Shown: piece after piece, positions 1 through 43,280 of the stretch | Position numbering within the stretch: position 1 is the stretch's first letter | Layout: each line of letters starts with the position of its first letter | Assembly: GCA_944472155.2 (NCBI GenBank) | Contig: OX235273.1 | Coordinates: forward strand, 101,950,582 to 102,014,581 | Origin: Trichobilharzia szidati | Taxonomy: Eukaryota; Platyhelminthes; Trematoda; Strigeidida; Schistosomatidae | Reading direction: 5' to 3' | Length of the DNA: 64,000 bases | The notes under the pieces: model-generated | The model's database searches: none | Told to the model about the DNA's origin: nothing | Seen by the model: the letters and a program-made list of their open reading frames with translations, nothing else | Position numbers and translations under genes: made by a program

Positions 1-3000
1 ACATTCTTAGTCGACACAGGAGCAGAGGTGAGTGTTCTCCCTCCGTCTACACAGGAACGTCAGCATCCTGACCCAGCAGTTACGCTCCAAGCCGTTAATA
101 AGTCCAGTATTGTTACATATGGAAGTAAACGAATGACTTTGGATTTTGGTCTGCAGAATACCTACACTTGGTCGTTCATCATTGCAGATGTCCCATCCCC
201 AATCCTCGGTATTGATTTTCTACAGCGACACAAACTGCTAGTTGATCCGATAAGTCCTAAGCTAATAGACTCGCTCAATAAAACGTACATCGCTGGTACG
301 ATTAGCCGTGCATCATCGTTGAAATTGATGGTCACACGCACACCAGCATCTCCATATACCAATTTGGTAAATCAGTTTCCTGACCTTCTACAACCTTCTT
401 TTCGAGGAACAGAACCAAAGCATCACGTGGTTCATCACATTAAAACCACTGGACCACCAGTTTTTGCACGTCCCCGACGCCTTGACCCACATCGACTTAA
501 AATCGCAAAAACAGAGTTCGATAAAATGCTAGAGCTTGGTATTATTCGACCATCCAACAGCTCTTGGTCTTCACCGCTTCACATGGTACCCAAAAAGTCT
601 TCTGGTGAGATACGGCCGTGTGGTGATTATCGAGCTTTAAACAAGCAAACGGTACCTGATCGATACCCAATACCACATATCCACGATTTCGCTAGCAACT
701 TACCAGATGTTAAAGTTTTCTCTAAAATCGATCTTGTCAGAGCGTATCATCATATCCCCATCCACCCGGATGACGTTCCGAAAACCGCCATTACCACACC
801 ATTTGGCTTATACGAATTCGTACGCATGCCCTTCGGACTAATGAACGCCGCTCAGACATTTCAACGCCTAATCGACCAAGTACTCCGTGGTCTCCCTTTC
901 GTCTACGCATACATCGACGACTTACTAATTGCAAGTGCAGACGAAGCCGAGCATTTGAAACATGTGAAGACTGTGTTTGAAAGACTTAACCAATACGGCA
1001 TGACTATCAACTTAGACAAATGCGAATTTGGTAAGACCTCACTGAAATTCCTCGGTCATTTAATCGATAGCCAAGGAATCAGACCAGTCCCTGATGACGT
1101 ACAAGCTATCAAAGATTATCCGTTACCAGATTCTTTTAAGAAATTACGGCGATTCTTGGGTCTCGTTAATTTTTACCGGCGTTTCATCCCGAACTGTGCT
1201 AAAGCTTTACAACCGTTAACCGATTGCTTACGTGGACATAGTCGTTCATTCCATTTGCCCGCAGAAGCTGTTAAAGCATTCGAAACTGTTAAACAATTGT
1301 TAAATGACAAGACACTCTTAGTCAGACGCCAAAATGACGCCCCCCCTGTCTCTCATGACAGACGCTTCAGACGTTGCCATCGGGGCAGTTTTACAACAGC
1401 AGGTACACGGCGAATGGCAACCTCTTGCATTCTTTTCGAAACGACTGAATCCTACTCAGTGTCGCTATAGCACTTTTGGTAGAGAGTTATTAGCTGTTTA
1501 TTTAGCAATCAAGCACTTTCGACATATGCTGGAAGGTACAGCTTTTACTGTCTTTACAGACCATAAAGCTCTAACGAAAGCCTTATCAGCAAAACAGGAT
1601 AACTACTCTCCGCGTGAACTACGACATCTCGAGTTTATATCTCAGTTCACCTCCGATCTGCGACATGTGAAGGGTAAAAACAATGAAGTGGCAGACGCTT
1701 TATCACGTGTGCACATTGACAACATTGTATGCCCAGACATCGACTACGAACGTCTCTCAAACTTACAACGAGATGATGCCGAACTAAAGAAGATCATGTC
1801 TTCTAAAACAACATCTTTAAAACTAGACGCAATTCCTTTTGGCACGACAAAAATAATCTGCGACACCTCTACGGGTAAATATCGACCCTTCGTTCCAGCA
1901 GCTATGAGACATACAATATTCGAGAAGTTACATAATTTGTCTCATCCCGGTGTCAGCGCTACTATCAAACTACTAAAAGAAAGATTTATATGGCCGAACA
2001 TTAACAGCGATGTTAAGAAGTGGACACGAAATTGCTTGTCCTGTCAAAGAGTCAAAATCAACCGTCATACCAATGCACCACTTGGTCGCTTTCCTAACCC
2101 TGACTCTAGGTTTGAACATATACATGTAGACATAGTTGGTCCACTACCTCCTTCCAATGGTTTCAACTACATTCTAACTTGCATCGATAGATTCACTCGT
2201 TGGCCTGTAGCAGTTCCAATAGCCGACGTCTCCGCTGAAACGGTAGCTAAAGCTTTGGTCGAAAACTGGATAGCTAACTTTGGTGTCCCATCCATTATCA
2301 CTACAGACAGAGGTGCTCAGTTTGAAAGCCGACTTTTTCACCAGCTAACTGAATTACTGGGCATTAAACGAATACGAACAACCGCCTACCATCCTAGTTC
2401 CAACGGTATGGTTGAACGACTTCATCGACAACTCAAAGCTGCGCTCGCTGCTTCTTTGACTCAAAACGACTGGTCAACCAAACTTCCACTGGTACTACTT
2501 GGTATACGAGCTGCTCTAAAGAAAGATATTGGCTGCTGTGTTTCCGAACTAGTCTATGGAACAACATTACGATTACCAGGAGAATTTTTCACCCCAGGTA
2601 ACCAAGTTCCACAAGATATGACTGGTTATGTGCACCAGCTAAAACAACACATGAACGAACTCAAGATATCACTTCCACGCCAGCAGGAACGAACGTCATA
2701 CATCCCGCCACAACTGACAGATTGCACTCACGTCTTCGTCAGGAGAGAGGGTGTACAACGACCACTTCAACCCGCTTACGATGGCCCATTCAAAGTTCTA
2801 AATAGAAATGATAAAATTATCACGATAGAACGACTGAATAAAGCAGAAGCCATCAGTGTCGACAGAGTCAAACCAGCGTTCATCGATGATTTCGAAGCCA
2901 ACGATAAAGACCAGCTGAACGACGTTCCAAAACCTATATCCACGCAAGCTTCAACGTCGCCAGAGAAGCCTATGAAAACTACACGCTCTGGTAGGAGAGT

Positions 3001-3040
3001 TCATTGGCCTAAACGTTATGTGCAAATCATCAATATATAA
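1..3040 (+). pseudogene. pol: gypsy pol of copy A (PR-RT-RNaseH-IN), one frameshift
   Basis: The reading frame is open from base 1. It starts with the protease active site (DTGA) and continues through RT, including KIDL and the catalytic YIDD. At a run of seven C (1340-1346) the frame is lost. The rest of RNase H (TDASD, TDHK) and the integrase continue in the overlapping frame 1334-3040. The integrase shows the HHCC zinc module, the D,D35E residues ([25 protein letters not shown]) and a basic C-terminus. The matching run in copy B has six C, so the defect is a single added C. This could be a real mutation or a homopolymer assembly error. Unlike B, A is uninterrupted across the protease-RT junction. 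Confidence 0.9.
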
Positions 3041-4056: not shown

Positions 4057-6570
4057 TTATATATTGATGATTTGCACATAACGTTTAGGCCAATGAACTC
4101 TCCTACCAGAGCGTGTAGTTTTCATAGGCTTCTCTGGCGACGTTGAAGCTTGCGTGGATATAGGTTTTGGAACGTCGTTCAGCTGGTCTTTATCGTTGGC
4201 TTCGAAATCGTCGATGAACGCTGGTTTGACTCTGTCGACACTGATGGCTTCTGCTTTATTCAGTCGTTCTATCGTGATAATTTTATCATTTCTATTTAGA
4301 ACTTTGAATGGGCCATCGTAAGCGGGTTGAAGTGGTCGTTGTACACCCTCTCTCCTGACAAAGACGTGAGTGCAATCTGTCAGTTGTGGCGGGATGTATG
4401 ACGTTCGTTCCTGCTGGCGTGGAAGTGATATCTTGAGCTCGTTCATGTGTTGTTTTAGCTGGTGCACATAACCAGTCATATCTTGTGGAACTTGGTTACC
4501 TGGGGTGAAAAATTCTCCTGGTAATCGTAATGTTGTTCCATAGACTAGTTCGGAAACACAGCAGCCAATATCTTTCTTTAGAGCAGCTCGTATACCAAGT
4601 AGTACCAGTGGAAGTTTGGTTGACCAGTCGTTTTGAGTCAAAGAAGCAGCGAGCGCAGCTTTGAGTTGTCGATGAAGTCGTTCAACCATACCGTTGGAAC
4701 TAGGATGGTAGGCGGTTGTTCGTATTCGTTTAATGCCCAGTAATTCAGTTAGCTGGTGAAAAAGTCGGCTTTCAAACTGAGCACCTCTGTCTGTAGTGAT
4801 AATGGATGGGACACCAAAGTTAGCTATCCAGTTTTCGACCAAAGCTTTAGCTACCGTTTCAGCGGAGACGTCGGCTATTGGAACTGCTACAGGCCAACGA
4901 GTGAATCTATCGATGCAAGTTAGAATGTAGTTGAAACCATTGGAAGGAGGTAGTGGACCAACTATGTCTACATGTATATGTTCAAACCTAGAGTCAGGGT
5001 TAGGAAAGCGACCAAGTGGTGCATTGGTATGACGGTTGATTTTGACTCTTTGACAGGACAAGCAATTTCGTGTCCACTTCTTAACATCGCTGTTAATGTT
5101 CGGCCATATAAATCTTTCTTTTAGTAGTTTGATAGTAGCGCTGACACCGGGATGAGACAAATTATGTAACTTCTCGAATATTGTATGTCTCATAGCTGCT
5201 GGAACGAAGGGTCGATATTTACCCGTAGAGGTGTCGCAGATTATTTTTGTCGTGCCAAAAGGAATTGCGTCTAGTTTTAAAGATGTTGTTTTAGAAGACA
5301 TGATCTTCTTTAGTTCGGCATCATCTCGTTGTAAGTTTGAGAGACGTTCGTAGTCGATGTCTGGGCATACAATGTTGTCAATGTGCACACGTGATAAAGC
5401 GTCTGCCACTTCATTGTTTTTACCCTTCACATGTCGCAGATCGGAGGTGAACTGAGATATAAACTCGAGATGTCGTAGTTCACGCGGAGAGTAGTTATCC
5501 TGTTTTGCTGATAAGGCTTTCGTTAGAGCTTTATGGTCTGTAAAGACAGTAAAAGCTGTACCTTCCAGCATATGTCGAAAGTGCTTGATTGCTAAATAAA
5601 CAGCTAATAACTCTCTACCAAAAGTGCTATAGCGACACTGAGTAGGATTCAGTCGTTTCGAAAAGAATGCAAGAGGTTGCCATTCGCCGTGTACCTGCTG
5701 TTGTAAAACTGCCCCGATGGCAACGTCTGAAGCGTCTGTCATGAGAGACAGGGGGGCGTCATTTTGGCGTCTGACTAAGAGTGTCTTGTCATTTAACAAT
5801 TGTTTAACAGTTTCGAATGCTTTAACAGCTTCTGCGGGCAAATGGAATGAACGACTATGTCCACGTAAGCAATCGGTTAACGGTTGTAAAGCTTTAGCAC
5901 AGTTCGGGATGAAACGCCGGTAAAAATTAACGAGACCCAAGAATCGCCGTAATTTCTTAAAAGAATCTGGTAACGGATAATCTTTGATAGCTTGTACGTC
6001 ATCAGGGACTGGTCTGATTCCTTGGCTATCGATTAAATGACCGAGGAATTTCAGTGAGGTCTTACCAAATTCGCATTTGTCTAAGTTGATAGTCATGCCG
6101 TATTGGTTAAGTCTTTCAAACACAGTCTTCACATGTTTCAAATGCTCGGCTTCGTCTGCACTTGCAATTAGTAAGTCGTCGATGTATGCGTAGACGAAAG
6201 GGAGACCACGGAGTACTTGGTCGATTAGGCGTTGAAATGTCTGAGCGGCGTTCATTAGTCCGAAGGGCATGCGTACGAATTCGTATAAGCCAAATGGTGT
6301 GGTAATGGCGGTTTTCGGAACGTCATCCGGGTGGATGGGGATATGATGATACGCTCTGACAAGATCGATTTTAGAGAAAACTTTAACATCTGGTAAGTTG
6401 CTAGCGAAATCGTGGATATGTGGTATTGGGTATCGATCAGGTACCGTTTGCTTGTTTAAAGCTCGATAATCACCACACGGCCGTATCTCACCAGAAGACT
6501 TTTTGGGTACCATGTGAAGCGGTGAAGACCAAGAGCTGTTGGATGGTCGAATAATACCAAGCTCTAGCAT
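4057..6570 (-). CDS. pol: gypsy pol of copy B: RT, RNase H, integrase (837 aa)
   Basis: This open frame of 837 codons encodes most of a gypsy polyprotein. RT carries KIDL near residue 67 and the catalytic YIDD at 129-132. RNase H has TDASD near residue 275 followed by TDHK. The integrase has an HHCC finger, the three D,D,E acidic residues and a C-terminal basic region. The first Met is not a true start. The frame should continue upstream from the protease, but a one-base deletion plus a substitution near 6650-6657, relative to copy A, puts gag-protease and RT out of register. The product is probably not made from this copy unless a frameshift rescues it. No internal stops are present. Confidence 0.9.
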
Positions 6571-7973
6571 TTTATCGAACTCTGTTTTTGCGATTTTAAG
6601 TCGATGTGGGTCAAGGCGTCGGGGACGTGCAAAAACTGGTGGTCCAGTGGTTTTAAATGATGAACCACGTGATGCTTTGGTTCTGTTCCTCGAAAAGAAG
6701 GTTGTAGAAGGTCAGGAAACTGATTTACCAAATTGGTATATGGAGATGCTGGTGTGCGTGTGACCATCAATTTCAACGATGATGCACGGCTAATCGTACC
6801 AGCGATGTACGTTTTATTGAGCGAGTCTATTAGCTTAGGACTTATCGGATCAACTAGCAGTTTGTGTCGCTGTAGAAAATCAATACCGAGGATTGGGGAT
6901 GGGACATCTGCAATGATGAACGACCAAGTGTAGGTATTCTGCAGACCAAAATCCAAAGTCATTCGTTTACTTCCATATGTAACAATACTGGACTTATTAA
7001 CAGCTTGGAGCGTAACTGCTGGGTCAGGATGTTGACGTTCCTGTGTAGATGGAGGGAGAACACTCACCTCTGCTCCTGTGTCGACTAAGAATGTCGTACC
7101 GGTATTTCTATCTGTTACATAAAACAAACGACTGTTAGATCGTAGGTTGCCGACAGTAGAAGTTTTCGCACAAGACGATATATCTTTTGGTTTAGCCTGA
7201 AAGTTGCAAGGTGAACGGCACCGTCGTGCATTGCTTCCATAACTACGGTGATACCAGCAAATATTATCGCGATGTCGTGACGTGCTAGGGGATCGAGAAA
7301 GACGTCGACGAGACGAGCTTCTATAACGACTTGGTTGTGTGCGTGTGGTTAGTTTTGCTAACTGACTCAGTAAGGTGTCGACTTTGTGTTCTAGAGTCTG
7401 TATCCTGTCGTGAGTGTCTGGTATTCCGCTAGTGGAAGCGACAGATTGAGGTGTTGACCTCTCGTACATGCGATCCGCGATTTCGGTGAGCCTTTCAATG
7501 TCAATGTCGTCGTCTCCGAAAGCAAGAACTTGCTGGATGTTTGCAGGAAGTCGTCGCAGCCAGATTTGGTAAAATAGACGTTTATCGATTTCTCTTCCGG
7601 CAACTAGGCTTTGCATATGCCTCATGAGTTGAGATGGGGTTTTATCACCTAGCTCAACATTGCTTAACAAACGATCGAGTGCTTGCCTATCCGAAAGCGA
7701 AGTGCATCGAAGTACCTCTTCCTTCAACTTGTCGTAAGGCGCTTCTGTGCTGGGTTGAACGATGTATTGCCGTACCTGCTCGGCGACTTCGTCTGGTAGT
7801 ACTGTACTCAAAATGGCGAATTTAGCTGTCTGTGACGTGAGCTTATTGCTAGTCAAATAATGCTCCAGTCGTGCAAACCAAAGATGAGGGTCTCTGGGCT
7901 TAAAAACTGGTACAGTAAGAGAAATAGTACTAACAGATCCCAGCTCTAAGTTATCAGAGGTATTGGAAGACAT
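6564..7973 (-). CDS. gag: gypsy Gag-protease of copy B
   Basis: I take the ATG at 7973 as the start (MSSNTSDN) because related Gags begin just before a V-P-x-F / W-F-x-x-x-E segment; the frame itself is open further upstream. Gag is followed by an arginine/serine-rich stretch and a CHCC zinc motif of the CWYH...C..PC type, the unusual Gag finger of the CsRn1 group. In the same frame follow a retropepsin ([13 protein letters not shown]) and a second protease motif (ILGIDFL). The frame ends 13 residues after the protease-RT linker is lost through the frameshift near 6655. Gag and protease share one frame here, unlike element C. Confidence 0.88.
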
Positions 7974-8203
7974 GTTACAATTCGTAAAAAAATGGTTTAA
8001 GAGTAGCAAAATAGCAAAATTTGTGCCCACTAGGAATATGACAAAACAGAAAAACATGCAATGCAGATGCTTACCACAAATTACTGCAGGTTGTGCTATG
8101 AGCAAACACAAGAATGAGTTCGAAATGTTTAGTAAAAATATAGATCCGCGAAAGTTAAAGTTTTAATAATCCAGCAAGTGTAACGATGCGTCGAGGTCAA
8201 CAA

Positions 8204-32548: not shown

Positions 32549-34189
32549 ATGGCTGTAGAAAGTAACCTTAGAAATGGCACCAAAACACCTTACTCTGTAG
32601 TCACAAGGGCTTCAGCCAGAGAAGGCAAAAACGCAGGGACACCAACCCCAAATCGCATACCCATCCTAAAGACCCGTGTAGGACTCGTCTGTCCTGATAC
32701 TATGCCTGCACTGCCACAGTCTAGTACTGAAACGGCGCAGGCAATACTAGTAGGACAGGATACTACACCTGCACCAACTGAAAGCCAATGTGTGAAGTAC
32801 AACAAACCTAAAAGGAAACGCTCAAGACGTCATAAGACCTCGAAGGCGTCACCAAGTAAGGGAGACGAATGCCAGGCGTGCAATATCATTGTTTCTAAAG
32901 CTGACTCAGCTTTCGAATGCAATTTTTGCAAACGGTGGGTGCACTGCCGTTGCGACAAAGAGGTACCGAAATCATACTACGAGTTTATGAGAAATAACCC
33001 GTGCCCGTGGTTTTGGTACATCTGTCCACTCTGTCGCCCTGGTGTAGTCACACAGAGCGTGTCTGCGGTTAGCAGAAACTTCACGCCGCCCTTGTGTCCC
33101 AACACGGTCTTATGTAGCTCCCCACCTGCTAACATCACATTGCCAAAACTTGGCATAGACAGTAAGAAGGACACTCCAGTCCTACTGACCGAAAATGCCA
33201 ATTTTCACAAGGTGAAGATTCACAAGGTTGGACCTAAAACATTAAGGAAAGATAGAGTTAGAGAAGCACCACTTGCATCCACAAGCAAGCTTGGCAACAC
33301 AATAAAGGCTGGCCAGAACCCGATGAAGCCTAAAGTTGCTGATGCTGCAAAGGAATACGAGAAGCCAAAGGCCAAACCTAAGTCTGAGGTTAATCGGTCT
33401 AATTCGCTCATCCTCTTTAACGTACCTGTGAGCAAGGACAGCTTGCTTGAACAGCGGGCCCTGTTTGATCAGGAACAGTGGTCCAACCTGTGCAATAAAC
33501 TAGGTCTGAATATTAGTTCAGTGAAATTGTGCAGGCTGTACAGGGGTGTCCACACACCTCAAGGTAAGCCACCCCCATTACGGGTTACACTGGACTCTGC
33601 CGAAGAGGCCGAAAAGGTACTATTGATGGCTCAGGTACTAGCCATCGACAGAAGCTCTAACATAAGGGTGAGACAAGACAGACCATGGGCTGTCAGACAA
33701 ATGGCAAGGGAGTCACCGGAACTTTTGCCTTCCACCTCTATGGTAGTGCACGGTGTTCCGGAGCTGGAAACGGGCACTGCCTGTGAAAAACACATGCATG
33801 ACGTACAGCAGTGGAGATGGCTGTCGTCTCAGATGGCCCTTGGCGCTTCTGGAGCCATCTCCGTTTACCGACTACCTCGCCCCGCTCATCTCACACTGAT
33901 TAGCTCCCCAAAGCTGCTTAGTGTCACATTCAACTCCCCAGAGCAGTTGGCCATAACACTTCAACGGTGGTATGAGATCAAGGGGAAATTGGGAGGACAC
34001 ATCCGATGTTGCGAAAGCAGACCTCGAACCATAAGGAGGCAGCAAACTGAGGCTTTAATACGTCCCCAAGCTTCAGTGACACTCGAGCGATGCAGTTCTG
34101 AGAATAACAGTCTGTGCCACCCAAGTGTCCTGCCTAAATCCAAGGGAAAAAACCACAATGGGCCGGTTCCATCGGAACTGGCCAATTAG
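32549..34189 (+). CDS. LINE G ORF1 protein with PHD finger (546 aa)
   Basis: ORF1 proteins of CR1-like LINEs bind RNA and nucleic acid ends and help reverse transcription. After a basic stretch (KPKRKRSRRHK), a PHD-type C4HC3 zinc finger spans about residues 110-165: C-x2-C, C-x2-C, W-x-H/C-x-x-C, then W-x-x-C-x2-C. A lysine-rich linker follows. Then come two RRM-like modules of the same layout: SLILFNVPVS...WSNLCNKLGL...LRVTLDSAEEA (about 285-385) and SMVVHGVPEL...WRWLSSQMAL...LSVTFNSPEQL (about 395-485). The second may be a duplicate of the first. The end (KSKGKNHNG) overlaps the slippery site. Start: first ATG after upstream stops. Confidence 0.82.
   Translation: MAVESNLRNGTKTPYSVVTRASAREGKNAGTPTPNRIPILKTRVGLVCPDTMPALPQSSTETAQAILVGQDTTPAPTESQCVKYNKPKRKRSRRHKTSKASPSKGDECQACNIIVSKADSAFECNFCKRWVHCRCDKEVPKSYYEFMRNNPCPWFWYICPLCRPGVVTQSVSAVSRNFTPPLCPNTVLCSSPPANITLPKLGIDSKKDTPVLLTENANFHKVKIHKVGPKTLRKDRVREAPLASTSKLGNTIKAGQNPMKPKVADAAKEYEKPKAKPKSEVNRSNSLILFNVPVSKDSLLEQRALFDQEQWSNLCNKLGLNISSVKLCRLYRGVHTPQGKPPPLRVTLDSAEEAEKVLLMAQVLAIDRSSNIRVRQDRPWAVRQMARESPELLPSTSMVVHGVPELETGTACEKHMHDVQQWRWLSSQMALGASGAISVYRLPRPAHLTLISSPKLLSVTFNSPEQLAITLQRWYEIKGKLGGHIRCCESRPRTIRRQQTEALIRPQASVTLERCSSENNSLCHPSVLPKSKGKNHNGPVPSELAN
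34147..34183 (+). promoter_or_regulatory. putative -1 ribosomal frameshift signal joining LINE G ORF1 and ORF2
   Basis: A AAA AAC occupies 34147-34153 in the ORF1 frame (gga aaa aac), and its -1 reading (aaa aaa cca) is the ORF2 frame. A 7-nt spacer (34154-34160) precedes a hairpin. GGCCGGTTCC (34161-34170) pairs with GGAACTGGCC (34174-34183) over ten consecutive pairs, one G-U, with loop ATC. The ORF1 stop follows at 34187-34189. The ORF2 frame has no stop from here onward and no ATG until well inside the endonuclease. Confidence 0.75.
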
Positions 34190-37086
34190 TCCCAACACTA
34201 AGTTCCCTACCAGCAGACAGCTTCACGTCAACTACCCCACAACACGCTGAGGTTGTAAGACTCACTGTCAGCTGCCTGTATAGCAATGTGAGGGGGCTGA
34301 GAGTAAAAATAGGTGAACTCCGAAATCTCCAAGCACACCTACAACTGAAAATAATCATTCTCACCGAAACATGGCTAACCCCCACTATCGCCGATAATGA
34401 AATCAGTATAGGTGATATGGTTTTGGTCAGGAGAGACAGGGATAATAAGGAAGGAGGGGGAGTTGCCATATACTTTGATAGGCAACTTAAATGTGTTCGC
34501 GCAACGGACCCACCACTTATTGAACTCCCAGACTCCATATGGTGTCATTTCACCGTAGGCCACACCAAGCATTTACTTGGTGGCATCTACCGATCTCCCA
34601 CCTGTGGGGCAGAGCACAATCAGCTACTGCTCAGCACTATCACAGGGATACGAGACTTGGGCTATGACCAAATCACCATTGCTGGAGATTTCAATGCCCC
34701 ATCACTGAACCTTGGCTCGGGGTATGCTAAGGGAAAATTCGGCCGAAATCTACTGCAAGCTATTCGGGACACGGGACTGACTGAGAATGTTGGAGACGAC
34801 ACTAGGTGGGGCCCTAGTGGAAAGTCATCAAAACTAGACTACATTCTAACTAGTGACCAACTACTCGTCGAAAAGGTCCAGGTCATGACTCCTCTAGGAA
34901 GTAGTGACCATGCAGTCATAGGTTTCGACCTCGTTCTCCGTGAGCACTTGCAGTGGGACGCTACGCAACCATGTCTGTGTTACAGCAAGGCTGACTACGC
35001 TGAAATGCGGAGGCTCTTGTCCGATGCAGACTGGCCCTTAGCATGGGATGAGCTGTCTGTGGATGAACACTGGGAAGCGGTAAAAAAGATTATTCATACA
35101 GCGATCTCGGATACCGTCCCTTTAGTCACAGCACAGCCCAAAAGAAAATCATCATGGTTAAAGAGAGGCACGCAGCGTATTCTGCAAGCAAAGAGGAAGG
35201 CTTGGTTTACGTGGCGCGTATCTAAAAGCCAGATCGACCATGATGCATACCTGGAACTCAGGAACCGGTGCAATGCAAGAGTCAGGAGGGACAGAAGGTC
35301 ATTCCAGGCTAACCTTGCTAAAAAACTCCTGGCAAACCCGAAGAATTTGTACCGATTCATGTCGGAAAGGAAACCAACCAACCAAGGGGCTTGCGCCTTA
35401 GTAGGCCAAAACGGTCAATATCTCACTAGTCTGGAGATGGCTGAAACATTCAGTTTAGCCTTCGCCAAACAGCTAAACAGCAATGTGGGTATTACCGTTA
35501 CGAACCAAAATGGTGGCATGACTATTTCACAGGAGGAAGACCAAATAGCCACCCCTCAAATAAACCCTGCAATAGTACTGAGAAAGCTGCAGCGACTCAT
35601 ACCTGGGAAGTCCCCAGGTTGTGATGACATCAGGCCATCTGTTCTGAAACAGTGCGCCGAAGCTCTCTGTAGGCCTTTATGCGACTTGTTCCAACACTCC
35701 ATGGAATCGGGGAAACTGCCAAAGGAATGGAAAAGAAGCATCCTTTCTCCGATCTTCAAGGGTGGGGATAGGCAAAATCCCACCAGTTATAGACCAGTAG
35801 CTCTACTCCCAGTGGTATCGAAAGTACTGGAAAGTATTATTGATGATCACATCAGGGAATATCTGGATAGGTCTAAAATACTCCATGAAGCCCAACACGG
35901 TTTCAGGAAAGGAAGATCCTGCGTCACTAACTTATTATCAGCTTGGGACGATTGGACATCATGCTGGGATATGAATGTTCCTGTCCATGTGATCTTTCTA
36001 GACTTTGAGAAGGCATTTGACACTGTTCACCATGACCTTCTCCTACACAAAATAAGCCAGGTAGGTCTAGGTAAACCACTTCTGTCATGGTTGAAGGACT
36101 ACCTAACTGAAAGGCAATTTTGCACCAAGGTCAATCGAGTCCGATCATCTTGGCACAGCTCGTCATCAGGAGTGTCGCAGGGTTCTATCCTGGGACCACT
36201 GATGTTCTTGATTTTTATCAATGATTTACCATGCCGTCTAAACTGCCCGACTCTTCTATACGCTGATGACGTAAAGATATGGAGGGCGGTAAAGTGTCCG
36301 GAGGACTCAGATAGGCTGCAGGCAGATCTAAGGCTTCTGGAAGACTGGGCGGTAACCAGTGGAATGACTTTCAACCTGAAAAAGTGCAAAGTAGTGAAGT
36401 TACGCACCTGTAGACTGCAGAATGCAAGTTACACCCTGTGCAATGAAAGCTTGTCCTGCTCAACGTCGGAACGTGACTTAGGTCTAGTTCTAACGGAGAA
36501 AATGGACACAAGCGTGAATTACACGGGGGATGTAGCGAGGGCATATGCGGTCATACACTTTACACATAGACAATTAGGTGCACTCACTCCTGAGCTCTTT
36601 CTAAGGTTGTATAAAACATACGTCAGACCGCATCTTGAAGTGCATAATATCATTGCACCCCCACTGCTTAAAAGAGACGCCAACCTCTTGGAAAGAGTCC
36701 AACGACGGGCAACAAAAGGAGTGGTTGGTCTCCGAAATAAACCATATGACGAAAGGCTGAAGAAATTAGGCCTATTCACACTCAGTTACCGTCGCCTGAG
36801 GGGGGATTTAATTACTGCCTACAAAATAACAAATGATCAGAATCACCCAAACAAAGGTGTTCTGCCATTGAGTAGGTATAGGCTCCCTCGTGGAAATCCT
36901 AGAAGGATAGCTCATCAGAGGGCAAGGACCCGGGTGCGCTCCCACTTCTTTTCCCTGCGGGTTTGCCGTCCCTGGAATTCCTTACCGGCAGATGTAGCTA
37001 TGGCACCATCTGTGGACGCCTTTAAGCGAAGGCTGGACAACCTTGCAGCGACACAAGGACTGTATCCAAATGGCCTATCCCCTTAA
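34147..37086 (+). CDS. LINE G ORF2: AP endonuclease and reverse transcriptase
   Basis: The frame is open from the slippery site, and the endonuclease fold starts at about 34261 (LTVSCLYSNVRGL). Endonuclease motifs follow in order: N in YSNVRG, TETWL, GGIYRSP, AGDFNAP, and SSDHAVI at about 34900. RT motifs are SYRPVALLP, QHGFRKGRSC, FLDFEKAFDTV, SGVSQGSILGPL and the catalytic YADD at 36259-36270. The C-terminus has the RPxL / WNSLP region typical of CR1/jockey elements. The protein nicks target DNA and copies the element RNA in place. The usual first ATG falls after the N and E catalytic residues of the endonuclease. A separate ORF2 start is therefore unlikely, and a frameshift fusion is favoured. 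Confidence 0.85.
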   Translation, partial: KKPQWAGSIGTGQLVPTLSSLPADSFTSTTPQHAEVVRLTVSCLYSNVRGLRVKIGELRNLQAHLQLKIIILTETWLTPTIADNEISIGDMVLVRRDRDNKEGGGVAIYFDRQLKCVRATDPPLIELPDSIWCHFTVGHTKHLLGGIYRSPTCGAEHNQLLLSTITGIRDLGYDQITIAGDFNAPSLNLGSGYAKGKFGRNLLQAIRDTGLTENVGDDTRWGPSGKSSKLDYILTSDQLLVEKVQVMTPLGSSDHAVIGFDLVLREHLQWDATQPCLCYSKADYAEMRRLLSDADWPLAWDELSVDEHWEAVKKIIHTAISDTVPLVTAQPKRKSSWLKRGTQRILQAKRKAWFTWRVSKSQIDHDAYLELRNRCNARVRRDRRSFQANLAKKLLANPKNLYRFMSERKPTNQGACALVGQNGQYLTSLEMAETFSLAFAKQLNSNVGITVTNQNGGMTISQEEDQIATPQINPAIVLRKLQRLIPGKSPGCDDIRPSVLKQCAEALCRPLCDLFQHSMESGKLPKEWKRSILSPIFKGGDRQNPTSYRPVALLPVVSKVLESIIDDHIREYLDRSKILHEAQHGFRKGRSCVTNLLSAWDDWTSCWDMNVPVHVIFLDFEKAFDTVHHDLLLHKISQVGLGKPLLSWLKDYLTERQFCTKVNRVRSSWHSSSSGVSQGSILGPLMFLIFINDLPCRLNCPTLLYADDVKIWRAVKCPEDSDRLQADLRLLEDWAVTSGMTFNLKKCKVVKLRTCRLQNASYTLCNESLSCSTSERDLGLVLTEKMDTSVNYTGDVARAYAVIHFTHRQLGALTPELFLRLYKTYVRPHLEVHNIIAPPLLKRDANLLERVQRRATKGVVGLRNKPYDERLKKLGLFTLSYRRLRGDLITAYKITNDQNHPNKGVLPLSRYRLPRGNPRRIAHQRARTRVRSHFFSLRVCRPWNSLPADVAMAPSVDAFKRRLDNLAATQGLYPNGLSP

Positions 37087-38404: not shown

Positions 38405-41395
38405 CTACACGTTTAATGAACTTAAAATATCTATGTTGGACGAAAAAGTGGATGTAGGATTCAGACTCAGAAGTGCACTGTCATCTTTGAGCAGTCTGGT
38501 GACTGAGGAGATGAACACTGCGAGTGTGTTTGCATCGCGCACATCAGCTGGTAGTCTATTCCAAATGACTGAAAACTTATTTAAGAAGAAATTATACCGC
38601 ATGTGAGTCTGACAATGCTCTATAGCAGCTAGGTTGTGATGATTTCTAAGATTGTAATTGATGACAGCGGTAGGTTTAATTACTGGCTCGGAGGAGTGCA
38701 CGAGCAGATTAGTTAGCTTGTAGTAAAAAATCAGGTTTAGCTTAAGACGTCTTTTCCAGAGTGGTTCTAAACTTAGTCTGTCGCAACGTTCGTAGTATTG
38801 GAGACCACTTTCTAAACCAAGAATTCTTAAGGTGAATTGCCGTTGCACTCCTTCTAACTTAAACTTGTCATTTTGTCTGAGTCCGCTAAGAATAAACGGG
38901 CAGTATTCTAAAATAGGTCGGACACATACTTTATATAATAAAACCCTAGTTTCACAACAAAAGAAATTGCGAGTTATGCAGCCTAGGAGCCTTCGTGTTT
39001 TACGTCTGGCATAATCAGTTTGTTCAGAGAACGTTAAGTTACTAGAGTATCTGATACCGAGATCTACGGCTGAGTTGAGCTTGGCTAGTTTACGCCCATT
39101 TATTTCAAGATTCAGGTCAAGGTTACTGTTTCCGATACAAATCCAGCCGCATTTATCAATGTTGAACTAAAGACAGGATTCAGTACACCATGTTGCGAGA
39201 CTACTTAGTTCAAGATGTATTTTATTCACCATATCGCTTAGTTCATGAGCGTGGCAGGAGTAAACGACTTTGAGGTCGTCAGCATATAGGAATGATTTAC
39301 CTGAGGTGAAGCAGTTGCAAATGCTGTTAATGTATACTGTAAATAAAAGTGGACCTAGGACACTACCTTGTACAACCCCACTTGTGATCTGTCTGGGATG
39401 AGACAACACAGATCCAACCTTGGTTATTTGTACCCTATTGCTTAGAAAGGATTTTAACCAGCTCAGTAATGGATTGCGAATCCCACATGAATACAGCTTC
39501 TCAAAGAGAATACTGTGAGATACCATGTCAAATGCCCTAGATATGTCGAAGTAGAGAACAACAACTAGCTTACGTGCTTCGCGACTACTAGTGACGCAGT
39601 TGAAAAAGTCGAAGCGGCAAGTAACGCAAGACCTATTTTTGAGAAATCCGTGTTGAGACCTTGTAACAAGATCTTCCTTAAGTAGATAGTCTGACAACTG
39701 ATCTTTGACAACTTTCTCCATGACTCGCGAGACAACTGGGGTTATATTGATAGGTCTGTAATTGCGGACGTTTGCCTTATCACCGGATTTATAGTGTGGA
39801 ATTATGAAGCTAGTTTTCCACTCATTAGGGTAAGTGCCAGTGTCCATAGATATTGAGAAGAATTTAAGAAGTAGTAGTGGTATATCACACCCACTGTTTT
39901 TGAAAATTATGGAAGCAAGGCCATCTGGTCCCATGCTAGTGGAAGGTTTCAGGCTTTTAACTGCTTGTTCTATTAATTGGTCGGTGAACACTATGCTTCC
40001 GAGGAAAGAGCTAGTAAGGGGGCCGGTGTCACCAGGAATGCGCGTTTCTAAACTGAAGTTTGCAAACCACTCACTGAATATTTCACAGATGGTGGCAGGC
40101 ACATTGTAGATAACTTTGTCATGAAGTAAATAGGGGATGTCCCTAGTCGACTGCATTCGTTTTTTAAGAAGTGTTGTTAAGTTATAAACTTTGGAGATGC
40201 TTTCAAGTGCCCTTAATTCTTCGTCGAGGTCCTTTTGAGAGCGTTGGCGCTTGACAGATTCAAGAGATTCATGGATTGAGTGCAGTAGTGATATATCCTT
40301 AGTTGAATAGTACTGTTTCTTCAATTTCCTCAACTTATTGCGGCATGCCCTCGGAATGTATTCAGCTTGGTGTCTACTTAATTTCACTACCTTCTTAGGA
40401 GCAACAGTATCTAGACAAAGGATAACATTCCTGTAAAATAGGGATACTACATCCTCCAGGGAGTCAGTGGTAAAATATTCATCCCAGTGACAGAGTCGAA
40501 TGAGTTCTTGGACTAATCCCCAGTCTGTATGTTTGTAACTACGACAAATCAAGCTCCCTGAATCCTGTTTGTTTCCTATATTTAGTAGTGAGAAAGGCAG
40601 AGAGCAGAGCACCATTCTATGGTCACTATTGGAAAATCTGTTACCAACATAGGTGGAGACTGGGATTGTGTCATGACAAAACACAAGGTCCAACATGTTG
40701 TCACCACGAGTAGGTGTCTGGACGTGTTGCTGCCATCCATAACAATCGATAGTGGCAAGTAATTCGTCGAAGCGTTGGGGGCCGGAACTACTTAACCAAT
40801 TGACTTCTGGAAGATTGAAGTCCCCTGCAATTATTTTGTAATTAGTACTAAACGATGAGGCGTGTGCGAATGATTTAGCTAATAACGCATCAGTTTCTTT
40901 GGTTGAGCTTGGTGCTCGATAAACACAGCCTATGAGAAGCTTGTACTTATCTCCTTGTAAGACGACCCAGAGTGAATCAGGTACCTCGTTCAGTATTTCA
41001 TCTTCCACCTTACTGGCTATGAATGAGTTATGTAAATATATGAGACATCCTCCACCACGCTTGCTGTCTCTATTTGCACGGTGTACAGTGTAATCATCCA
41101 TGCCTATATGCACATCAAGTACAGAATATGAGCACCATGATTCAGTAATCAAAGCTACAGTAGGCTTGGCGATAAATAATAATGCCCTTAGTTCAGATAT
41201 CTTATTGATTAAGGAACGCGCATTAATTAGCAATATCGTGAATAAGTCACGGGATACTACAAACTGGCTTAAGATATCACCATAACCTAACTCTGTTTGT
41301 GCGTCAACAACGCAAGAGTTTATGAATGATACGGGGGTTGGACTGGGTGTCTGTGCATCGGGGTTAGAGTGCAGTGAGGTGGTCCTAGGTGCCAT
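38405..41395 (-). pseudogene. LINE F ORF2 (endonuclease-RT) with one in-frame TAG
   Basis: Starting at MAPRTTSL, the endonuclease shows ILLINARSL, LITESWC, CVYRAPSS, AGDFNLP and NSDHRMV. RT shows SMGPDGLAS, NYRPINITP, QHGFLKNRSC, YFDISRAFDMV, SGVVQGSVLGPL and the catalytic YADD. Shortly after YADD comes TAG (39167-39165), and the frame then continues with no further stop to 38405. That part contains the RPILEYC, LRILGL, YNLRNH and WNRLPADVR segments of the CR1 C-terminus. A single point mutation explains the stop. The relic at 17705-21190 has a different codon neighbourhood there (a TGA-TTAAAG context), so the element was probably once continuous. Confidence 0.82.
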
Positions 41396-41564
41396 GGGTC
41401 GTACCAGTGATTCGGGACACGTGGAAAATTTGCCATTTGTTCCTGGACATAAGGATAGTAGATGTTGGGCCTGGGTTGACGGTTAAAAAGCATAGCATCA
41501 AATGGTCTACCCATCCACGTGCTATCCATCATACCGGTACACACCTTCGTGTTGGTTTTATAAC

Positions 41565-42767
41565 TTAAAGGAAATTGAGAGGGAAGGTGCTTTGGTTGTA
41601 AGACTTTGGGGGTTTTGGAGCATACTGAAAACCACCAGATATACTTGTGTTTCGAGAGGAACTTTTCGTAAGAGGTGAGGGTTTTTTGACAGTCTTACTC
41701 TCAGCAAGCTTATTGAATACAAAGTATTCTTCCCCATCATTAGTCTCAACCCGGCGAAATTTGTTCATTGTGGTGAGGTCACCACGTTTGGGTAAGAATT
41801 TCTTGGAACGGCTTGCAACAGTTCTACCTATTTTAACATCTTTTGGTGAGACGTTATTTACAGGGGTACTGGTATCTAAATCAGTCCCTAGTTCCATTGC
41901 CATGCGTGGTTGTTGTGTGGTTTGCTGAATGCTAATGTCAGCATTAGGTGACTGTTGCTGCGCACGATCGTTTTTGGGTAATTCTAAGCTAGAGGAGGTG
42001 ATTAGGTTATTACTCCGCATCATTCTGCGCTGACACGGTGTTTTATCTTGAGCTATGGTTATAGACTTATAACTACTGTTCAGTCTTAGGTGATCCTGGC
42101 ATTTAATAAACTTACTAGAATCAAGGGAATTACCGAACTTAAAAATAATGGGACAGTTAACCTGGTTAGACTTTTTACGAAGTCTTTTGCATTCACATGG
42201 AACACTGGCCATGCCGCAACAAATCAAGATTTTGTGTTTAACAGTCTTCAGAGGAAGAGAATCTGGGACATTGTAAACTATAGCCTGGTGAGAAGAGGTT
42301 ATACACTTCATCACCTCCGCAGCCAAGCAGTCAGTCATATTTTCAGCCTTATTTAGGGTGTCTGGAGACATTTTAGGATGCTTTCTTAACAGACAGGCTA
42401 TTGGGTCTAAATCCGAAAGCTTGCTTTGAGTTACATCCAGCAAAGACTTAACCTGGCCAATATCAGAACTGCCCTCCGTGATATTTGACGATGGCAGTGA
42501 CATTCTATCAAACTGACCTAATTTTTTCTGAAGTTCATTTACTTGCCTTTGAATATCTTTCACAAGGAGGTCTAATTTACGGATCTCAGAGTTCTCTAAC
42601 AGAACATCTTTCATCTGTATCACAGGAGTGAGAATTGCACTCAAGCCATTTTGTGAGCTAGCAGTTAATGCTGTATTACAGGGTGGTAATGCAGTTATAA
42701 CCGAGGTTGAGGCACTATCTAAAACAACTGTGTTTCTACGAACACGGTTTTTAGAAATTTGGACCAT
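41565..42767 (-). CDS. LINE F ORF1 protein (400 aa)
   Basis: This uninterrupted frame starts MVQISKNRVRR. Residues 65-95 look like a short coiled coil (LLVKDIQRQVNELQKKL). The middle contains HQAIVYNVPDS, an RRM-like first strand, followed by CPIIFKFGN and QDKTPCQRRM, which match ORF1 of element H. The C-terminal third is basic and serine/threonine-rich. It is probably the RNA-binding partner of ORF2. The ORF2 frame begins downstream, with no ATGA overlap as in H and no slippery hairpin as in G that I can see. Confidence 0.75.
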   Translation of the reverse strand: MVQISKNRVRRNTVVLDSASTSVITALPPCNTALTASSQNGLSAILTPVIQMKDVLLENSEIRKLDLLVKDIQRQVNELQKKLGQFDRMSLPSSNITEGSSDIGQVKSLLDVTQSKLSDLDPIACLLRKHPKMSPDTLNKAENMTDCLAAEVMKCITSSHQAIVYNVPDSLPLKTVKHKILICCGMASVPCECKRLRKKSNQVNCPIIFKFGNSLDSSKFIKCQDHLRLNSSYKSITIAQDKTPCQRRMMRSNNLITSSSLELPKNDRAQQQSPNADISIQQTTQQPRMAMELGTDLDTSTPVNNVSPKDVKIGRTVASRSKKFLPKRGDLTTMNKFRRVETNDGEEYFVFNKLAESKTVKKPSPLTKSSSRNTSISGGFQYAPKPPKSYNQSTFPLNFL

Positions 42768-43280
42768 AATTACAGGGATTATATGACTATAAGCAGTAAA
42801 TGAATATCAGAGCAAACACGTGCAAAAATGTCACCAATTTCGAACGTACCGCCAGAGAAATATATTTCTCCCTAACATGAAAATAATGACGTTTGGGGAC
42901 ATTGCTTTCATCCGACAAAACTCAAGGCTAGGAAAACCTGTGTAAACCATATGGTAACAAAGAGTCCCCTGAAATAATCCTCACAAATTTCACGATGCAT
43001 ATATCTGATTGCTGGGCACGAATGTGCCTATGAAACTATCGAATTCTGAGGCCACTTACATTTCCAATGATGAAGGCCCCGATGCACTTTCTAAATTGTG
43101 CGTTACATTTTCTCAGATATATAAAACTCTCACTTCTCTGGTGTTTCTTGCCAGAAAGTTGCAGAATTTATTGTGATTCGTTTGCCTTCGAACACTTATC
43201 CTGTGAATTTTCAAGTATTGGTTTGTAGGGATTTGATTGATTGCTTCTGTGGATATAATCTTGTTGAGTATTAATACCTA
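42768..43280. other. 5' flank of LINE F, otherwise nothing recognised
   Basis: The part nearest ORF1 shares a GAACGTACCGC motif with 30538-30550 upstream of LINE H ORF1, read in the same relation. It is therefore probably 5' untranslated sequence of the F/H LINE group. Confidence 0.4.

Follow-up and report, generated by a model that had tools for sequence, protein, structure and literature searches.

The junction between the two open reading frames (ORFs) of a putatively CR1-like long interspersed nuclear element (LINE) from the fluke Trichobilharzia szidati very probably carries a −1 programmed ribosomal frameshift signal, as judged from sequence comparison and the predicted RNA fold. The element lies in the window analysed here, a 64,000-nucleotide (nt) stretch of contig OX235273.1 (assembly GCA_944472155.2, positions 101,950,582 to 102,014,581 of the forward strand), to which unprefixed positions below refer. 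ORF1 (32549..34189, +) is the zero frame and encodes 546 amino acids, the N-terminal part being cysteine-rich. ORF2, open from 34138 to 37086 (+) in the −1 frame relative to ORF1, encodes an apurinic/apyrimidinic endonuclease and a reverse transcriptase (domain matches Exo_endo_phos, 4.6e-12, and RVT_1, 6.2e-34), and the two ORFs overlap by 52 nt. An initial annotation of this DNA had described a −1 frame that runs into ORF2 without a stop and that has no ATG before the first endonuclease residues; both statements are borne out, the first ATG of the ORF2 frame being at 34417, downstream of the endonuclease ETW motif at 34366.

The cassette is 43 nt long and ends with the ORF1 stop codon. It opens with the slippery heptamer A_AAA_AAC (34147..34153, +), an X_XXY_YYZ sequence that stands in the ORF1 register, with the codons GGA/AAA/AAC, and encodes K-N. 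A 7-nt spacer, CACAATG (34154..34160, +), separates it from a predicted 10-bp stem, including one G-U pair, that is formed by a 5′ arm, GGCCGGTTCC (34161..34170, +), and a 3′ arm, GGAACTGGCC (34174..34183, +), around the 3-nt loop ATC (34171..34173, +); the TAG (34187..34189, +) follows 3 nt past the stem. Heptamer, register, spacer, stem, loop and stop agree base for base with the initial annotation, which had also suggested a hairpin prediction; RNAfold returns a stable hairpin (−18.3 kcal/mol, z −3.1, with 2 of 200 shuffled sequences equally stable). The fold obtained is a simple hairpin, from a program that cannot predict pseudoknots, and the 3-nt loop of the model would make a classical H-type pseudoknot difficult to accommodate. 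The features by which a −1 programmed frameshift signal is recognised are present in the sequence: a zero-frame X_XXY_YYZ heptamer, a 5–9 nt spacer with a stable predicted stem, an overlapping −1 ORF that encodes a downstream domain, and retention of the signal in related sequences. A second in-register heptamer, G_GGA_AAA (34144..34150, +), overlaps the first in the window family; it is not counted among the required parts, since the sister family described below lacks it.

Such an arrangement is rare by chance. Slippery heptamers number 180 and 172 on the two strands of the 64 kb, and the one at 34147 is the only one of them with a stem of at least 8 bp starting 5–9 nt downstream (at most one G-U pair, loop of 3–8 nt). 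In 100 runs of first-order Markov sequence, sites of this kind with a 10-bp stem occur at 0.05 per 64-kb strand, a figure that excludes the extra demands of location within the 52-nt overlap and of register.

Conservation was followed first among proteins, in an alignment of nine ORF1 sequences comprising the window and eight relatives that are 23–62% identical to it. The residues encoded by A_AAA_AAC, K534-N535, are invariant in 9/9 and form the sole invariant pair after R496. The seven proteins whose C-terminus is complete, that of the window among them, were scanned for the stem geometries that their peptides could encode (spacer 0–12, loop 3–7, at most one G-U), P0125 (KNGTMPVL) and P0128 (KNE) being excluded with C-termini too short for the scan. 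A spacer of 7, a stem of 10 and a loop of 3 are encodable in all seven peptides, of which six bear on the question, the geometry having been derived from the window; any other scanned geometry is encodable in at most 2/7. Among 618 control placements elsewhere in ORF1 the best reaches 3/7 and 584 give zero, and the fixed 7/10/3 geometry is encodable in 1.3 to 12.5% of shuffled peptides. The tails of the window, P0121, P0122 and P0123 are similar and mutually non-independent. Single peptides are unremarkable when the geometry is left free, and the strength of the comparison lies in the common geometry. A peptide resembling the ORF1 tail motif, RPVPQEL, also occurs near the N-terminus of an ORF2 protein (P0015, residues 8–14), possibly by chance.

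The stem geometry was predicted from the proteins alone, and the DNA of a sister family, read afterwards, contains that stem. This family was found by querying the worm's own genome with P0122 (53% identical to the window ORF1), a search that gave 84 matches, from which 30 loci were cut; own-genome searches covered 1.11 Gb. In the sister family the order is again A_AAA_AAC, a 7-nt spacer, GGCCGGTTCC, a 3-nt loop, GGAATCGGCC and TAG. In one copy, L063, ORF1 is 563 amino acids long and 51% identical to that of the window. Between the two, the heptamer (7/7), the 5′ arm (10/10) and the 3′ arm (8/10) agree at 25/27 positions, and both changes in the stem preserve pairing by shifting the position of the G-U pair. 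The less conserved parts are the spacer, constant in length and identical at 3/7 positions, and the loop, identical at 0/3 (together 3/10), with 38/60 positions identical upstream. The Fisher p value for heptamer plus arms is 0.0003 against spacer plus loop and 0.0013 against the upstream sequence. Ten pairs are likewise retained in variant L106, where the G-U pair is replaced by A-U, and in variant L122, which has a different loop and 3′ arm.

The window family itself is apparently abundant: a first look gave 1662 candidates for the window junction in the own genome, of which 40 were scored. The own-genome copies compared are 93 loci, mostly top-scoring matches and including the window; apart from L105 and L125, all of them (91) align across the junction. 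An intact cassette, with in-register heptamer, 7-nt spacer and ten pairs, is present in 41/49 copies of the window family, among which the off-register L121 is not counted, and in 23/42 copies of the sister family. The copy alignment that the initial annotation had proposed as a check therefore came out in its favour: the sister family and other copies retain the heptamer, the spacer length and the stem while the spacer and loop sequences vary. Both frames are open in 13 of the 38 long loci (L043–L050 and L055–L084, L043 being the window), in the sense that ORF1 exceeds 500 codons and ORF2 has no stop as far as the available sequence reaches (684 or 513 codons, part of ORF2), and the cassette is kept in all 13. 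The initial annotation had held that an ATG-initiated ORF2 upstream in other copies would speak against frameshifting; none of these 13 loci has an ORF2-frame ATG ahead of ETW, and L071, which lacks ETW, has its first Met at the same residue. Two of the long loci, L070 and L084, lack the search strings and have a stop within ORF1, and the inverted neighbours L062 and L063 may represent one event. A third fluke family was sought in the own genome with P0130, P0129 and P0127, and none was found among 31 short stretches read, which came from two of those three queries and, at some places, from the P0122 search; 29 of them align, all to the two families.

Several observations weigh against the proposed signal. 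With the geometry left free, 7 to 191 out of 300 shuffled versions of each of the seven peptides allow a stem of matching length, P0125 permits 4 bp only, and RPVPQEL in P0015 means that the tail peptide can occur outside ORF1. The DNA comparison is one between two families of a single genome, deeper conservation resting on proteins. The cassette is damaged or its register lost in 8/49 window-family and 19/42 sister-family copies, and 11/42 copies of the latter have indels in the A-run. Beyond the stop, changes between L063 and the window across 34190–34270 are spread nearly evenly over the codon positions (7, 8 and 11 in 26 codons), and this inter-ORF stretch seems to be under no clear coding constraint, though neither of the compared copies has a stop in it.

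The copies with a gap or insert in the A-run are L058, L061, L065, L066, L113, L114, L117, L119, L120, L132 and L133, and in the sister family this run seems to be a hot spot for indels. Two further copies, L090 (C6:1286840-1287140) and L110 (C6:1263650-1263950), lack the same 8 nt where the 3′ stem arm ends; in L090, ORF1 lies within a single open frame of 1515 amino acids, which gives the look of a natural ORF1-ORF2 fusion.

The evidence supports the proposal of the initial annotation that this LINE would make an ORF1-ORF2 fusion by frameshifting. The predicted 10-bp hairpin, 7 nt further on, would stall ribosomes at A_AAA_AAC; a fraction of them would move back by one base and, now in the −1 frame, bypass the ORF1 TAG and carry on into ORF2. 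The predicted product is a 1512-amino-acid ORF1-endonuclease-reverse transcriptase fusion (535 + 977 codons) with the junction ...SKGKN-PQWAGSIG... and the junction peptide GKNPQWAGSIGTGQLV. The majority of ribosomes would end at the TAG and give ORF1 protein alone, the ratio being set as in retroviral Gag/Gag-Pol. We infer the slip, its rate and the hairpin (not a pseudoknot) as stimulator from the sequence of the junction.

Other routes to ORF2 have to be weighed against frameshifting. Translation might terminate and reinitiate, or ribosomes might enter internally, at a non-AUG codon near the TAG in the ORF2 frame, with the hairpin acting as a coupling structure of the kind required in SART1, a silkworm LINE. 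The relevant passage of PMC5972666 gives such an account of SART1 expression, presents the L1 case as a proposal, and places the structure that SART1 requires downstream of its stop-restart site. The window LINE has no stop-start overlap: a scan for ATG found no SART1-like start codon overlapping or adjoining the ORF1 stop, and the ATGs in 34138–34300 (34158 and 34286) are out of the ORF2 frame. The hairpin, moreover, precedes the stop, and an in-register A_AAA_AAC placed precisely 7 nt ahead of that hairpin would not be required for reinitiation. We regard reinitiation as improbable, even as the best placed of the alternatives. Slightly less probable still is spliced-leader trans-splicing, in which a leader ending in AUG, joined upstream of the endonuclease, would supply ORF2 with a separate mRNA and an initiation codon and leave the cassette incidental. 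It would account for an ORF2 that lacks an ATG before ETW, and parasitic-flatworm spliced leaders, as stated in the part of PMC12582326 that concerns them, end in ATG with few exceptions and resolve polycistrons. Against this, 34138–34330 in the window has one AG (34252) that would place the leader AUG in the ORF2 frame; it is absent in L063, whose only such AG is inside the cassette. A comparison of one copy of each family, by AG only, found no in-frame 3′ splice acceptor common to both ahead of the endonuclease, and trans-splicing is weakened because the sole in-frame acceptor is not common to the two families; it also leaves the conserved heptamer, spacing and stem unexplained. That the tail KN..PVPxE(S/L)A is conserved as a peptide, with the stem a by-product of its codons, is just as improbable as trans-splicing: the tail is similar in 6/7 of the proteins used, but that of P0127 differs (ERSPTRLGSA) with the same stem geometry still encodable, P0129 and P0130 vary inside the motif in encodable ways, and, with the C-terminal peptide fixed and the element's codon usage applied, heptamer plus 10-bp stem arise in 2.5e-5 of 200,000 random codings.

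The cassette favoured here as a frameshift signal resembles known ones. The −1 signals of retroviruses and RNA viruses combine A_AAA_AAC or U_UUU_UUA with a stem-loop, and they are like the cassette in heptamer type, in the 5–9 nt spacing, in a GC-rich stem and in their location just before the stop of the upstream ORF; they differ in that the cassette belongs to a presumably non-LTR (long terminal repeat) element whose ORF1 is neither a viral Gag nor a polymerase. Among non-LTR elements, a review (PMC5911963) states for the L1-type TRE5-A and TRE3-A of Dictyostelium, which also have two ORFs, that a −1 frameshift is required for ORF2. These belong to another clade and host, and the passage on them names no heptamer, stem or conservation test. 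As described in PMC5972666, ORF2 of that element is likewise dependent on ORF1 translation and on an RNA structure at the junction; it differs in having an overlapping stop-restart site, whereas the window LINE has no ORF2 ATG near the stop and carries its signal before the stop. Changes of frame are also discussed in the relevant part of PMC5009743 for the telomeric Drosophila LINEs HeT-A and TART; in HeT-A the gag gene itself needs the frameshift, and TART is presumed to have a start codon downstream of the stop. The initial annotation had called frameshifting unusual for LINEs. This fits the papers on animal LINEs, as far as the passages cited go, and has to be qualified by the Dictyostelium precedent in PMC5911963. 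Within the open-licence PubMed Central literature, subscription papers being outside the scope, no paper was found that reports a frameshift signal for a LINE of CR1 type. LINE frameshifting itself has a precedent in the Dictyostelium TRE elements, and the conserved fluke cassette appears to be a new variant. The route to scarce ORF2 protein in LINEs is an open question, L1 and SART1 having been explained by unusual initiation or reinitiation, and a cassette so compact and conserved makes the question of ORF2 expression testable with one standard reporter. If the reading is true, a LINE can yield an ORF1-ORF2 fusion at a fixed ratio, as retroviruses do.

Junctions of more distant LINEs were also compared. 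A search for their DNA in viral contigs (one weak match), plasmids (one 22% match) and E. coli genomes gave no useful locus. Contigs of prokaryote assemblies gave 41 loci with an ORF2 relative, most likely eukaryotic contamination, and 19 of their junctions were examined: eight have an in-frame stop, one is a frameshift candidate (L001), one is weak (L029) and nine are without a sign of recoding. L001, whose ORF1 has a GDSL esterase domain (2.8e-10) and whose ORF2 is 32% identical, has at L001:459-540 an in-register T_TTT_TTA, the ORF1 stop 3 nt later, a −16.9 kcal/mol hairpin and a −1 overlap; about 1e-4 such sites are expected by chance in its overlap. An ORF2-frame ATG at 522, a possible start, speaks against frameshifting there, and we regard L001 as no more than a candidate. 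In L029 a −1 overlap and an in-register G_GGT_TTT are accompanied by a weak fold (−10.1 kcal/mol). A single in-frame stop splits same-frame ORF1 and ORF2 in L002–L006, L008, L009 and L020 (8/19; for example L004:1523-1531 and L020:1644-1652), in the contexts TGA-CTA (L004, L005, L006 and L009), TGA-CTC (L008), TAG-CAA-CTA (L020) and TGA-CAA (L002 and L003). UGA-CUA and UAG-CAR-YYA are readthrough contexts, and these LINEs are candidates for stop-codon readthrough. Nothing points to recoding at the junctions of L007, L010, L011, L012, L014, L015, L016, L022 and L023, where an ATG in the ORF2 frame precedes the matched region. The pairs L002/L003 and L022/L023 each look like one element, and L004–L006, L008 and L009 come from one assembly set. 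Taken with L001 and the in-frame-stop LINEs, the fluke cassette suggests that related LINEs have repeatedly taken up recoding. There is about an even chance that, in a large CR1-related group, recoding is the standard route to ORF2, by −1 frameshift in some lineages, with A_AAA_AAC in flukes and U_UUU_UUA in L001, and by readthrough of UGA-CUA or UAG-CAA-CUA in others; the odds are put no higher because 9/19 junctions are ordinary. If true, such LINEs make a Gag-Pol-like fusion whose dose is set at elongation or termination, not at initiation.

The closest named relatives of the window LINE proteins are from Trichobilharzia regenti and other flukes. The only profile match of the window ORF1 is C1_1, below threshold (0.008), and its T. 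regenti relatives carry PHD-type names. A second LINE in the window (38405–42806, −), with an ORF2 29% identical to that of the first, has long ORF1 and ORF2 frames that do not overlap and, in contrast to the first LINE, an ORF2 ATG ahead of the endonuclease. Elsewhere in the window, 1–3040 (+) and 4057–8162 (−) hold gypsy-type pol genes on opposite strands, with translations that are near-identical by eye.
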